This document shows positions 16,119 to 52,138 of a stretch of 64,000 nucleotides of DNA, piece by piece. The DNA lies in assembly GCA_023957115.1 (NCBI GenBank), contig JAMLHN010000023.1, forward strand, positions 1 to 64,000. Direction: 5' to 3'. The stretch is from Thermomicrobiales bacterium (GTDB lineage: Bacteria; Chloroflexota; Chloroflexia; Thermomicrobiales; UBA6265). The position numbers and the translations under genes were made by a program. Within the stretch, counting starts at the first letter, position 1. Each line of letters begins with the position of its first letter. The notes beneath the pieces were generated by a model, which was not told where the DNA came from, ran no database searches, and was given only the letters and a program-made list of their open reading frames with translations.

Positions 16119-17603
16119 GTGGCGGACCACTTCAAGAATCTGATCAATGGCAAATGGGTCGATGCGAAGAGCGGCAAGACGTTCGAGCGGAGGAACCCAG
16201 CCAACGGCGAGCTGGTGGCGGAGTACACCAAGAGCGATGCGAGCGACGTCGATGCGGCTGTTGCGGCGGCCAGCGAAGCGTTCAAATCCTGGCGGCTCTA
16301 TCCGGCTCCCAAGCGCGGCGAGCTGCTCTACACGGCGGCGCAGATTCTGAACGAACGCAAGGAGCAATTCGCGCGTGAGATGACGGAGGAGATGGGGAAG
16401 GTCATCTCCGAGGCGCGTGGCGACGTTCAGGAAGCGATCGATATGACCTTCTACATGGCCGGCGAGGGACGCCGTCTGTACGGTCAAACGACGCCGTCGG
16501 AGCTGCCGAACAAGTTCAATATGTCGGTGCGGAAGCCGTTGGGTGTGGCGGGCATCATCACGCCGTGGAACTTCCCGATGGCCATTCCGTCGTGGAAGAT
16601 GACACCGGCGCTGATTGCGGGGAATACGATCGTCTTCAAACCGGCGTCGTTCACCCCACGCATGGCGGTCCGTTGGGTCGAGATCTTGCAGGAAGCCGGT
16701 CTTCCTGACGGTGTGGTCAATCTGGTGATCGGCGGCGGCGAGGACGTCGGCAATGCGATCGTCGATCATCCGGATGTGCCGCTCATTTCATTCACCGGTT
16801 CGACCGATACCGGGGTCAGGCTGGCAGCTCGCGCGGCTGCGTTGAACAAGCGGGTTGCCCTGGAAATGGGTGGCAAGAACGCCGTCATCGTGTTGGACGA
16901 CGCCGACCTGGAGCTGGCGGTCGACGGAATTCTCTGGAGCGCATTTGGCACTTCCGGGCAGCGGTGCACGGCTGCCAGCCGGGTCATCGTCCAGCGTGGC
17001 GCGCAACGCGAGCTGGTCGAGCGTCTGGTGGCGCGGGCCGGTGGAATGCGGTTGGGCGATGGTCTGGATGAGACGGTGCAGATTGGGCCGGTTGTCAGCA
17101 AGGGGCAATTGGAGACGATTCACACCTACGTGCAGGTGGGCCAGCAGGAAGGCGCGCGCCTGGCGGCTGGTGGCGGAATTGCCACTGCGGGCGATCTCGG
17201 CAAGGGCTTCTTCCATGAGCCGACGATTTTCGATAATGTCGGTCGTTCCATGCGGATTGCCAACGAGGAGATCTTTGGTCCGGTGACATCGATCGTACCG
17301 GTCGATTCACTCGATGAGGCCATCGATGTCGCCAATAGCGTTGCGTACGGGTTGTCCGCGTCGATCTTCACGCAGGACATCAACAATGCCTACCGGGCGA
17401 TGCAGGATATCTTCACCGGGATCCTCTACGTGAATGCCGGCACGACCGGCGCAGAGATTCATCTCCCGTTCGGTGGAACGAAGGCGACTGGCAACGGACA
17501 CCGCGAAGCCGGGACCGCGACGCTGGACTTCTACACCGAGTGGCAGAGCATCTATGTCGACTTCAGCGGCCGCCTCCAACGCGCGCAGATCGACAATCAA
17601 TAG
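16119..17603 (+). CDS. NAD(P)-dependent aldehyde dehydrogenase
   Basis: The 494-residue protein has the cofactor-site motif ITPWNFP (about residues 147-153), the catalytic Glu in LEMGGKN (about residue 249) and the catalytic Cys in SGQRCTAA (about residue 284). The C-terminal stretch HLPFGGTKATGNGHREAG resembles semialdehyde dehydrogenases of the 2,5-dioxovalerate/aminoadipate semialdehyde type. It oxidises an aldehyde to the acid. The start is GTG after GGTGGGG. Its stop codon overlaps the first unit of a heptanucleotide array. The substrate remains open. Confidence 0.9.
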   Translation: MADHFKNLINGKWVDAKSGKTFERRNPANGELVAEYTKSDASDVDAAVAAASEAFKSWRLYPAPKRGELLYTAAQILNERKEQFAREMTEEMGKVISEARGDVQEAIDMTFYMAGEGRRLYGQTTPSELPNKFNMSVRKPLGVAGIITPWNFPMAIPSWKMTPALIAGNTIVFKPASFTPRMAVRWVEILQEAGLPDGVVNLVIGGGEDVGNAIVDHPDVPLISFTGSTDTGVRLAARAAALNKRVALEMGGKNAVIVLDDADLELAVDGILWSAFGTSGQRCTAASRVIVQRGAQRELVERLVARAGGMRLGDGLDETVQIGPVVSKGQLETIHTYVQVGQQEGARLAAGGGIATAGDLGKGFFHEPTIFDNVGRSMRIANEEIFGPVTSIVPVDSLDEAIDVANSVAYGLSASIFTQDINNAYRAMQDIFTGILYVNAGTTGAEIHLPFGGTKATGNGHREAGTATLDFYTEWQSIYVDFSGRLQRAQIDNQ

Positions 17604-47309: not shown

Positions 47310-48674
47310 ATGGAGCTGCGAAGCTGGCGTACCTGGATGCGTCCCGGCATGCTGATCAAACGCTGGATGATTCTGGCGATGGCCGGCATCATCGTGATAA
47401 GTCTGGGACTCGCCATGGGTCTTACCTGGGCCTATCGCAATTACTATTGGCAGCTCGAATCGACCTCCAGCGCCGTCCGGCTGATCACCCTCCAGTTCAT
47501 TCCGCATCCCTATCGCGAGTTCGTGTTGATCGTCCCCGGCGTAGCAATGCTCAGCTACGGTCTCTGGCGTCTCGGGCATGCCGTGATCGGCCCGATTCTG
47601 GCATTGACCTCGATTCATCAGCCGATTTCGCAAATCGTCGCCAACCACAGATTTGGACCGAATATGCCCGATATCAATGTCGTCACGATCGGTGGGGGCA
47701 CCGGTCTCTCCCACTTGCTCCGGGGGCTCAAGCAGCACGATCTCGATATCACCGCAATTGTTACGGTGGCCGACGACGGAGGAAGCACCGGGCGGATTCG
47801 CCGTGAATACGATATTCCGGCGCCGGGCGACATTCGGAACTGCATCATCGCGCTGGCGGACGATGAGTCGCTGGTGAGCCAGCTTTTCCAGTATCGGTTC
47901 GATCGGGACGGGTCCGACCTCAAGGGGCATTCGCTCGGCAATCTTTTCATCACCGCTTTGTCGCAGGTCACCGGTAGCTTCGAACAGGCGGTCCTGGAGT
48001 TTGGCAAGGTCGTCAACATTCGTGGACGGGTGATGCCTTCTACGCTGGCGAATATCGATCTCTGCGCGGAGCTGATCGATGGGACCCGACTTCACGGGGA
48101 GTCGAAGATTCCGAACGACCAGGCTCCGATCAAGAAGGTCTATCTGGAGCCGGACAACCCTGCCGCGTATCCCCCGGCGCTGGACGCAATCATCAATGCC
48201 GATCTGATCATTCTCGGTCCGGGCAGTCTCTATACGAGCGTCATCCCGAATCTGCTCGTGAGCGGAATTGTGGATGCGATCCGCTGGTCGCGCGGCACCA
48301 CCGTTTACGCCTGCAACGTTGCGACCCAGATTGGCGAGACCGACCATTTCACCGCGACCGATCACATCCGCGCCGTCGTGGAATATCTTGGTCGTGGCAA
48401 TTTGGACTATGCGGTCGTCAACTCGAACCGAGCGTCGGCCGAGGCAATCAAGCCTGAGCTTGGTGTGCAGGCGGTCCTCGATGACGGACAGATTGCCATC
48501 TATGACGGCGTCAAGATCGTCGGGGCCGACGTCATCAGCGATGTGAACTCGTTGCGGCACGATCCCGCCAAACTCTCGCAGGTACTGGTGAGTCTGACGC
48601 GGCCGACGGGCAGCGTCACCCCGCTGCCCGTCGACCGGATCGAGGCGCGAACCGGCGAACCACTCAAGATCTAG
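47310..48674 (+). CDS. yvcK: YvcK/CofD-like gluconeogenesis factor with N-terminal membrane anchor
   Basis: The 454-residue protein has two membrane helices in the first 100 residues (about 19-41 and 67-90) and then the YvcK/CofD-like domain: NVVTIGGGTGLSHLLRGLK (about residue 123), TVADDGGSTGRIR and GHSLGNLFITAL, plus NADLIILGPGSLYTSVIPNL. YvcK proteins bind UDP-sugars and are needed for growth on gluconeogenic carbon sources and for correct cell-wall synthesis. ATG 47310 follows GGAGGGG. It precedes the GAPDH-like/pgk/tpi genes, fitting a link to triose metabolism. Confidence 0.92.
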   Translation: MELRSWRTWMRPGMLIKRWMILAMAGIIVISLGLAMGLTWAYRNYYWQLESTSSAVRLITLQFIPHPYREFVLIVPGVAMLSYGLWRLGHAVIGPILALTSIHQPISQIVANHRFGPNMPDINVVTIGGGTGLSHLLRGLKQHDLDITAIVTVADDGGSTGRIRREYDIPAPGDIRNCIIALADDESLVSQLFQYRFDRDGSDLKGHSLGNLFITALSQVTGSFEQAVLEFGKVVNIRGRVMPSTLANIDLCAELIDGTRLHGESKIPNDQAPIKKVYLEPDNPAAYPPALDAIINADLIILGPGSLYTSVIPNLLVSGIVDAIRWSRGTTVYACNVATQIGETDHFTATDHIRAVVEYLGRGNLDYAVVNSNRASAEAIKPELGVQAVLDDGQIAIYDGVKIVGADVISDVNSLRHDPAKLSQVLVSLTRPTGSVTPLPVDRIEARTGEPLKI

Positions 48675-48743
48675 ACTTCCGGGCGCGACGATTGTCGCCT
48701 GCGCGGCGGCGAAGCCGCGACCGGAAACCAGAGGGAGCTGAGC

Positions 48744-49760
48744 GTGGCATTACGTCTGGCAATCAACGGGCTGGGGCGCGTGAGCGCGCAGCTCGTTCGT
48801 GTCGTGAACCAGGGCGGATTTTCCGATCTTTTCGACATCGTGGCGATTCACGATGCCGCCGGCCCCGAGGCCATCGCCCGTGCGCTGCGGCACGACTCGG
48901 TCTACGGGCCGTTTCCGGATGAGATCGCGCTCGATGGAGAGACCCTGACGCTTGGTGAGCGGTCGATCGCGCTTTCCTCCAACGCCGAAGGGAGAAATGC
49001 GGTCTGGGGTAAAGAGGATATTCCCCTGGTCATCGTCGATGGATCGGCCAACTCGGATGCCTCGGCACTCGACCAGCATCTGAAGAAAGGTGCCAAGCGG
49101 GTGATCCTGCCGGCGGCGTCGCCGCTTGCCGATTTCAATCTGGGGATCGGGATCAACGAAACGTCCTACGACCCGGATGCGCACCAGATCGTTGCATCGG
49201 CCGCGGGTGCGCCGAGCGCCATTGCAATCCTGTACCGATTGCTGGATGACGTTGCGAAGATCCGTTGCGGAACGGCAACGGTGCTCTCGCCGGCTGGAGG
49301 CGACCGTTCGCTGGTCGATACTCCGGCGTCGCGCGGTGGGGCGAATGCATTTTGGCCGGTTTCCGCGGACCGTGACGGGATCTTCGAGCAACTGGCCGGC
49401 AAGCTTTCGAGCCGGCTGAGCGTGGTCGAGACGGTGACGCCTGCCGCCGCTGTTGGATCTGTGAGCTTCGGCAATTGGCTCGAGCAGAAGACGACGATCG
49501 ATGCGCTCAAGGAGCTCGTCAACAGCGCCGCCGAGAGCGATGAGCTTATCGGATTGATTGGTACGGTCGATGGGGTAACCTCATCTCTGGACATGGTGCG
49601 GGACGCCCGCTCGGTCGTCGTGGACTGGTCCGACGCACAATTGCTCTACGACACGTTCCTGACCGTTCGGGGTTGGTACGACGCGGAATGGGGCGCAGCC
49701 TGCCGGTTGGCAGACACGCTGGCATTGATCTGCGAGCAGGGTGTGCCGGGGACGGCGTAG
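48744..49760 (+). CDS. GAPDH-family protein lacking catalytic Cys and His
   Basis: The 338-residue protein has the GAPDH layout: N-terminal LAINGLGRVSAQLVRVV, HDSVYGPF, the pre-active-site segment NETSYDPDAHQIVASAAG, and the C-terminal WYDAEWGAACRLAD. The conserved SCTTNC that bears the catalytic Cys reads AGAPSA (residues 154-159), with Gly155 at the Cys position. The HAYTxxQ segment with the catalytic His is also missing (VLSPAGGD instead). It cannot carry out the thioester chemistry of GAPDH. GTG 48744 follows AGGGAG. It occupies the gap position ahead of pgk and tpiA, so it may be a regulatory or structural paralogue. Confidence 0.88.
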   Translation: MALRLAINGLGRVSAQLVRVVNQGGFSDLFDIVAIHDAAGPEAIARALRHDSVYGPFPDEIALDGETLTLGERSIALSSNAEGRNAVWGKEDIPLVIVDGSANSDASALDQHLKKGAKRVILPAASPLADFNLGIGINETSYDPDAHQIVASAAGAPSAIAILYRLLDDVAKIRCGTATVLSPAGGDRSLVDTPASRGGANAFWPVSADRDGIFEQLAGKLSSRLSVVETVTPAAAVGSVSFGNWLEQKTTIDALKELVNSAAESDELIGLIGTVDGVTSSLDMVRDARSVVVDWSDAQLLYDTFLTVRGWYDAEWGAACRLADTLALICEQGVPGTA

Positions 49761-49859
49761 GACGGACCCTGAGCCCGGAGGCCTGAGCATACGACGGCGC
49801 TCTGCCGGACGGGTGGCGAAACGCTCCAGTGAGACATTCAAACAAAAGGAGATCGTCCT

Positions 49860-51038
49860 ATGTCATTACGCACACTGGATGGAGTCGACGTATCCGGGAA
49901 GCGCGTTGTCGTTCGCGTCGATTTCAATGTCCCGATTCAGGACGGCGTCATTCAGGACGACACGCGCATTCGAGCCGCGTTGCCAACGCTGCGACGATTG
50001 CTCGGAAGGGGAGCATCCCTGGTTCTGGTATCTCATCTTGGCCGTCCCAAGGGCAAGGTCGACCCCAAGTACTCGCTGGCTCCAATAGCGGTGCGACTGG
50101 GCGAGCTTTTGGACGCGCCGATCGAACTGGCGAACGACGTCGTCGGTAACGATGCGCGTGCAAAGGCCGCCGCGCTGGCGGCTGGGGAAGTGCTCCTCCT
50201 GGAAAACGTCCGGTTCGAACCGGGAGAAGAGAAGAACGATCCCGAACTGGCAGTGCAATTGGCGTCGCTGGGCGATCTCTATGTGAACGATGCGTTCGGA
50301 GCGGCGCATCGTGCGCATGCGTCGACCGCAGCCATCGCGAGTCATCTGCCGGCGTATGCCGGCGATCTCATGGTCGCGGAAGTGTCGGCGCTCGGCGCAT
50401 TGACCTCGAATCCGGACCGACCGTTCGTGGACATTCTTGGCGGGGCCAAGGTTTCTGACAAGATCGGGGTCATCGAAATTAGGTTGTCGAGGGTCGATGT
50501 GGTCATGCTCGGTGGTGGCATGGCGAACACGTTCCTGCTGGCTCAGGGCAAAGCAGTCGGCGATTCGCTCGTCGAGGCGGACTTCGTCGAAACCGCGAAC
50601 CGGGTCATGCAGCAGGCGAACGAGCGGTCGGTCGAGCTGCTGCTGCCGATCGATGTCATTGCCGCCCAGGGTATGGACGGCCAGGCTGCCACGGTCGACG
50701 CGGACGGGATCCCAGACGATTGGGCCGCATTCGATATTGGGCCGAAATCAGCTGCGTCGTTTGCGAAGGTGATTGCCGGCGCGAAGACGATCTTTTGGAA
50801 CGGTCCAATGGGCGTCTTCGAGCGACCCGCGTTTGCAAATGGAACGCTGGCCATTGCCAGGGCAGTTGCGGCATCTGGAGCGTTTTCTGTGATTGGCGGG
50901 GGCGATTCGGTTTCGGCCATCGAGCAATCCGGTCTGGCCGACAAGATCTCTCATATCTCCACCGGCGGGGGCGCCTCGCTCGAATTCATCGAAGGCCGGG
51001 AATTGCCGGGAATTTCTGTATTGGAGGCGAAGAGCTGA
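49860..51038 (+). CDS. pgk: Phosphoglycerate kinase
   Basis: The 392-residue enzyme has [20 protein letters not shown] (about residues 16-35), [37 protein letters not shown] and the C-terminal [10 protein letters not shown]. All substrate-binding Arg and Lys residues typical of PGK are visible. It makes ATP from 1,3-bisphosphoglycerate. Its stop overlaps the tpiA start (TGATG), so the two are translationally coupled. Confidence 0.96.
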
Positions 51039-51790
51039 TGGCCGATCGGACCCCATTGATTGCCGGCAACTGGAAGATGAATCTGGAGGAATGGCAGGCG
51101 GTCGAGCTGGCCGGATCGATTGCGGATGGGTTCAAGGGGACGGGAGTCGATGTCGTTCTCTGCCCGCCGTTCCCCTGGTTGGTGCCGGTTGCCGCGGTGC
51201 TGCAAGGAACCCCGGTGGCGCTTGGAGCGCAGGACTGCAGCACCGAGACCGCGGGCGCCTATACCGGACAGGTGTCGCCGGCGATGCTCAATGCCCTTTG
51301 CTCGTATGTGATCGTCGGCCATTCGGAACGACGGCGGGATTGCTGCGAGTCGAACGAGCTGGTCGGGCAAAAGGCGAACGCCGCGCTCGCTGCCGGTTTG
51401 ACACCGATTGCGTGTGTTGGGGAAGCACTCGATATACGCGATGCGGGCCAGGCGATTTCCTGGGTCGAGGAGCAGGTTGATGCAATCGCAAGTGCAGTGG
51501 GAGCGGAGGGGGTTGCCAGGATCGTCATCGCCTACGAGCCGATTTGGGCGATTGGCACCGGACGATCTGCAACGCCCGACGATGCCGAGGACGTCGTTGC
51601 CGCGATTCGGGCGCGCGTATCGGCCACCAACGCAACGGCTGGCGCGCAGCTCCGTATCCTCTATGGGGGAAGCGCCAATGCCGAGAACGCGGCTGCCTAT
51701 CTGGCAACCGCGAATATCGATGGATTGTTGGTTGGCGGCGCCAGCTTGAAGGCGGACTCGTTTCTGGAGATCGTATCTGCGGCGATCTAG
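51038..51790 (+). CDS. tpiA: Triosephosphate isomerase
   Basis: The 250-residue enzyme has AGNWKMN (Lys about 13), VIVGHSERRR (catalytic His about 94), AYEPIWAIGTG (catalytic Glu about 165) and the phosphate-binding LYGGSANAEN. ATG 51038 lies inside the pgk stop; the length is normal. Confidence 0.96.
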   Translation: MADRTPLIAGNWKMNLEEWQAVELAGSIADGFKGTGVDVVLCPPFPWLVPVAAVLQGTPVALGAQDCSTETAGAYTGQVSPAMLNALCSYVIVGHSERRRDCCESNELVGQKANAALAAGLTPIACVGEALDIRDAGQAISWVEEQVDAIASAVGAEGVARIVIAYEPIWAIGTGRSATPDDAEDVVAAIRARVSATNATAGAQLRILYGGSANAENAAAYLATANIDGLLVGGASLKADSFLEIVSAAI

Positions 51791-52112: not shown

Positions 52113-52138
52113 CGGGCGGTTTCGACCGCCCGTTTTTT
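52113..52138 (+). terminator. Rho-independent terminator after secG
   Basis: CGGGCGGT, a TTCG tetraloop, ACCGCCCG, then TTTTTT, 19 bp past the secG stop. It closes the gap-like/pgk/tpiA/secG transcript. Confidence 0.96.

Follow-up and report, generated by a model that had tools for sequence, protein, structure and literature searches.

An apparently catalytically dead GAPDH in the native gap position of a Thermomicrobiales glycolytic gene cluster

The closest precedent for the protein described here is the inactive GAPDH-like protein of trypanosomatids. T. brucei GAPDHL has no catalytic residues and is poorly conserved between species, and it has been suggested that its enzymatic role passed to a GAPDH gained by lateral transfer (PMC4106842). 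Our query protein likewise appears to be a noncatalytic GAPDH homologue with low between-species conservation, for which we propose a takeover by an acquired GAPDH. However, the trypanosomatid protein is eukaryotic and flagellar and seemingly keeps its cofactor pocket, whereas the query is bacterial, is encoded in a native gap-pgk-tpiA operon, and has lost its nicotinamide contacts. Limited searches of the open-access literature found no bacterial counterpart. The engineered C149A variant of B. stearothermophilus GAPDH has the same fold with the Cys removed, and its structure was solved with NAD bound (PDB 1npt), so that loss of the Cys alone is compatible with folding; that variant carries one change, whereas dozens of conserved positions have changed in the query.

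We analyzed a window of 64,000 nucleotides (positions 1 to 64,000 of contig JAMLHN010000023.1, assembly GCA_023957115.1, from a Thermomicrobiales bacterium), the features of which are listed in Table 1. The query open reading frame starts with GTG and encodes 338 aa with no internal stop. A first-pass annotation had placed it in the gap position ahead of intact pgk and tpiA genes and had described GAPDH signatures at both ends, and both descriptions hold: the gene order is yvcK-gap-pgk-tpiA, and AINGLGR and WYDAEWG lie near the N and C termini, respectively. The alignment also bore out the reported absence of the catalytic Cys and of the catalytic His segment. The query reads ASAAGAPSAI where 23 full-length family homologues have SNASCTTNxL (AGAPSA in place of SCTTNC) and TVLSPAGGDR where homologues have TTVHSYTNDQ. 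The damage extends beyond these two sites, the only ones first described, to nearly the entire substrate and nicotinamide site: the EST-G motif has become VDG, the Arg of LRVPTPTVS is absent, and WYDNEWGYS has become WYDAEWGAA. The N-terminal GFGRIG motif is partly retained, as GLGRVS. The operon GAPDH thus looks catalytically dead from its residues.

Table 1. Features of the dead gap locus (positions in the window)
Feature	Position	Strand	Basis
GAPDH-fold protein, apparently catalytically dead, native gap position	48744..49760	+	Homology, Pfam, alignment, AF2, Foldseek
Shine-Dalgarno GAGGGAG, 6 nt ahead of the gap GTG start	48731..48737	+	Sequence read
Codon 155, catalytic Cys to Gly (Ala in G004)	49206..49208	+	Alignment
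Codon 182, catalytic His to Ser (His kept in G004)	49287..49289	+	Alignment
Codon 314, Asn of WYDNEWG to Ala (Ala in G004 too)	49683..49685	+	Alignment
S-loop region, residues 185-209, ~5 residues shorter than in homologues, predicted disordered	49296..49370	+	Alignment; pLDDT < 50
yvcK, CofD-like, UDP-GlcNAc-binding YvcK family, upstream neighbor	47310..48674	+	Pfam CofD 3.7e-101; TIGR01826 over cut-off; relatives in same position
Shine-Dalgarno AAGGAG of pgk	49846..49851	+	Sequence read
pgk, phosphoglycerate kinase, intact	49860..51038	+	Pfam PGK 1.5e-153
tpiA, triosephosphate isomerase, intact; start overlaps pgk stop	51038..51790	+	Pfam TIM 1.4e-84; motifs NWKMN, VGHSERR, AYEPIWAIGTG
Intrinsic terminator-like hairpin with T6 tail	52113..52132	+	Sequence

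We found a second dead GAPDH in the same slot of G004, a genome from a second genus (96% complete; the query genome, G000, has 89 contigs and is 91% complete). The G004 locus lies on a 704-kb contig, and its context, nusA-yvcK-gap-pgk-tpi-coaBC, is identical to that of the query. At the catalytic Cys of S-C-T-T-N, the query has Gly155 and G004 has Ala; at the catalytic His of T-x-H-x-Y-T, the query has Ser182 and G004 keeps the His. EST (now VDG), STG, Arg231, Asn314, and Tyr318 are gone from both copies, and both lack the phosphate and nicotinamide site residues of type I GAPDH; the N-terminal motif reads GLAGVG in G004. NAD binding is unlikely, judging from the absence of EST-G, of the Ser of the ISAPA motif, and of Asn314 in both proteins. 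A sequencing or assembly error as the cause of the Cys loss is ruled out by this orthologue: the first-pass annotation would have read a Cys in close homologues as a local error, and the nearest relative has none. The clade sharing a Cys-to-Gly change next to pgk that the annotation had envisaged was found in part, in that G000 and G004 form a clade with Cys loss adjoining pgk but G004 has Ala and keeps the His.

Full-length operon gap genes recovered from other genomes of the family are canonical, and the other aligned family members retain SCTTN. The query shares with these operon genes (L004 to L026) the nusA-yvcK-gap-pgk slot and the GGFSDLF and CExG tail motifs, but they keep SCTTN and TTxHS. 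Judged by position and motifs, it descends from the family's own operon gap. It is ∼31% identical to the family operon genes, which are 71% identical to each other (median pair), and the two dead copies are 35 to 37% identical. A profile built from both dead copies retrieved no third among 32 family, 61 order, 158 class, and 400 phylum genomes (∼500 phylum genomes overall); only G000 and G004 scored above 600 bits, with a drop from 631 to 271 at the next match, and a scan of genome contigs gave a single distant match, which was canonical. In G007, a short contig (contig 296, L053:2699-5216) carries a second yvcK-gap-pgk cluster, the gap of which is only 57% identical to a family copy; the cluster may reflect duplication, transfer, or a contaminating contig.

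The dead pair forms one clade (support, 100/98) with very long branches (9.25 and 6.34), and the two genomes are sisters in a tree of nusA, yvcK, pgk, and tpi (SH-aLRT, 100). Among 74 conserved positions changed in both copies, 19 carry the same new residue, compared with 7.1 expected from shuffles, and those at the old active site are VDG for EST, 183P, 236A, 238G, and 314A. Because the genomes are sisters and share these residues, inactivation was probably already under way in their common ancestor. The simplest reading of the sequences is one ancestral inactivation followed by further drift, although the Cys itself may have been lost separately in the two lineages.

The query is homologous to GAPDH over its full length (best solved-structure match, 4.9e-36) and scores above the cut-offs of Gp_dh_N (PF00044; 1.6e-13) and Gp_dh_C (PF02800; 1.7e-6). 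AF2 predicted a GAPDH fold for both dead proteins (pLDDT of 82.9 for the query and 84.3 for G004, pTM of 0.86 for both), which was partly expected from an input alignment that included canonical GAPDHs, and the best Foldseek match of the query was 1gd1 (TM, 0.89); together with the Pfam domains, this places the query in the two-domain GAPDH fold superfamily. Only the S-loop region had a pLDDT below 50 in both proteins, a disorder that carries little weight since AF2 was run without a canonical control under the same alignment. On the GAPDH-I model TIGR01534 (cut-off, 367.2 bits), the query scored 124.7, below the level for a catalytic type I GAPDH (EC 1.2.1.12), and G004, gap2 (see below), and a canonical relative scored 143.6, 323, and 440, respectively. 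The query therefore shares with type I GAPDH the fold, full-length similarity, genomic position, and origin but differs in having no catalytic Cys or His, no phosphate-binding residues, and no Asn314.

We then examined whether the sequences bear signs of selection. Fourfold sites are identical between the dead genes in 25 of 74 cases, versus ∼0.31 expected at saturation, at an amino acid identity of 0.35; divergence at codon positions 1, 2, and 3 is 0.48, 0.44, and 0.64. A codon model rejected omega = 1 on both dead branches (delta lnL of 4.3 and 9.9); with saturation at synonymous sites and branch lengths at their bounds, only the direction of this result is usable and no precise dN/dS can be given. 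The probability that a neutral 338-codon frame of like composition stays open is 4e-5. These data uphold the earlier claim that the gene is kept by selection, and we infer purifying selection because, with synonymous sites saturated, the genes have kept amino acid identity, synteny, an open frame, and the predicted fold. With an intact gene under such selection and neither Cys nor His, the query has the attributes of a pseudoenzyme. As the sequences indicate, the constraint is real and far weaker than that on canonical gap (median pair identity, 0.71). It is also uneven: residues 149 to 245, which comprise the active site, S-loop, and phosphate sites, keep 6 of 48 invariant sites in both copies versus 29 of 73 elsewhere (p = 0.001, for segments picked after the data were seen), and the C-terminal strand and helix (residues 305 to 338) keep 11 of 17.

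The dead gap had been described as coupled to pgk and tpiA. This applies within the pgk-tpiA pair, where the pgk stop and the tpiA ATG overlap, but gap and pgk are nonoverlapping neighbors, the pgk start lying 99 nt past the gap stop behind its own Shine-Dalgarno sequence. A common transcript of the dead gap with pgk-tpiA is presumed. The hairpin downstream of tpiA is suggestive of the operon end, in a region with 2 terminator-like sites versus 4.0 in shuffles.

The first-pass annotation had reasoned that another enzyme must supply GAPDH activity and had proposed a genome search for a normal gap. G000 and G004 each contain two genes with a Gp_dh_N domain, and the second one in G000, gap2 (L002, contig C45), has SCTTNA, the His, and WYDNEWG all intact, so that by its residues it could supply this activity. 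The active site is likewise intact in gap2 of G004. None of the seven aldehyde dehydrogenases of G000 reached a GapN-type NCBIfam cut-off (best score, 346 versus 780 for the archaeal model); because of this and of its intact active site, gap2 is likely the catalytic GAPDH of G000. A third gap could be missing from the 91% complete G000, and G004 (96%) has these two only. An aldehyde dehydrogenase encoded in the window (16155-17552) has as its nearest model alpha-ketoglutaric semialdehyde dehydrogenase, below the cut-off.

Among 400 phylum genomes, 19 from seven families, both dead-gap genomes included, carry close relatives of gap2 (69 to 78% identical); within the order, only G000, G004, G035, and G039 do so. 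This patchy distribution suggests that gap2 was acquired by transfer. In the family, two genomes carry gap2 or the dead copy, and each of them carries both; for two related genomes, this represents one event and no statistical association. G035 has a canonical operon gap alongside gap2, and gap2 alone therefore does not force inactivation.

We consider it fairly probable that the native operon gap became a pseudoenzyme after gap2 took over and was kept as a noncatalytic protein, probably through protein contact. An ancestor would have gained gap2, a second type I GAPDH, which took over catalysis, as its distribution suggests. The operon copy would then have lost the catalytic Cys, the phosphate sites, and the nicotinamide contacts, and the shared new residues suggest that much of this loss predates the split of the two genera. 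A full-length GAPDH-fold protein would have been retained in the PGK/TPI gene cluster, presumably on a common transcript, and would act without chemistry, most likely as a partner that contacts glycolytic proteins in a structural or regulatory capacity. Regulation of triose flux, RNA binding, and a PGK/TPI scaffold, as suggested in the first-pass annotation, are candidate roles. That it is a bacterial GAPDH-fold regulator or organizer, made with PGK and TPI and controlling lower glycolysis after a transferred GAPDH took over catalysis, is a possible but tentative extension. GAPDH ranks among the proteins commonly described as moonlighting, and its additional functions are difficult to tease apart from catalysis. 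With catalysis moved to another gene and the native GAPDH kept in the operon, the roles would be naturally separated, and what remains conserved should therefore reflect the noncatalytic function; the locus would also clearly illustrate how a second enzyme can take over the work of a central glycolytic step and leave the original gene in place.

The dead protein is carried by two genomes only, and the identity between its copies, low against the 71% of canonical pairs, counts against this explanation. The same low identity, the very long branches, and the loss even of NAD and S-loop features would fit a slowly decaying, functionless relic, a gene under relaxed constraint that is being lost after gap2 had made it dispensable. 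We regard this as unlikely: both genera have kept the frame intact while synonymous divergence has reached saturation, the bias among codon positions and the rejection of omega = 1 speak for constraint, GC3 (0.74) is similar to that of neighboring genes, the Shine-Dalgarno sequence is intact, and 19 new residues are common to both copies. In a narrower version of the contact model, which we consider rather improbable, the protein would modulate Gap2 as an inactive subunit of mixed tetramers, in the manner of inactive subunits known from other oligomeric enzymes, given that gap2 is present in both genomes and the core fold is predicted to be retained; however, the query has a shortened S-loop, an element central to the tetramer, this loop is predicted to be disordered in both proteins, and Gap2, which accompanies a canonical operon gap in G035 and occurs in 17 other phylum genomes, needs no dead copy. 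The new residues that the copies share at the former active site could instead mark a rebuilt site for a different reaction or ligand, but the query has neither Cys nor His, conservation between the copies is lowest in the site region, and the S-loop is predicted to be disordered, which makes such neofunctionalization improbable. Operon position is kept in both genera, as would be expected of a cis-acting spacer whose translation alone, whatever protein it yields, affects mRNA stability or pgk expression; this is highly improbable, because the amino acid sequence itself is constrained and pgk has its own Shine-Dalgarno sequence 99 nt downstream. An assembly or sequencing error, or a chimera, could be imagined in an incomplete assembly of 89 contigs but is hardly credible with changes across the whole protein, an open frame, and an orthologue on a long contig of an independent genome. 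The preferred reading remains a noncatalytic protein retained after takeover by gap2.

Additional observations concern the gap2 loci. The G039 relative (L050:7325-8328) is split by a frameshift into halves that are 89% and 66% identical to G000 gap2, either an odd mosaic or an assembly problem. In G000, gap2 adjoins a tagatose-bisphosphate aldolase-type gene (NF009498, over the cut-off). This neighbor is absent at the other gap2 loci examined (G035, G039, G125, G131, and G421), and the pairing of gap2 with a tagatose-1,6-bisphosphate aldolase-type gene is found in G000, G004, and G085 (L047:7916-10298, L046:6793-8883, and L115:4158-6503).
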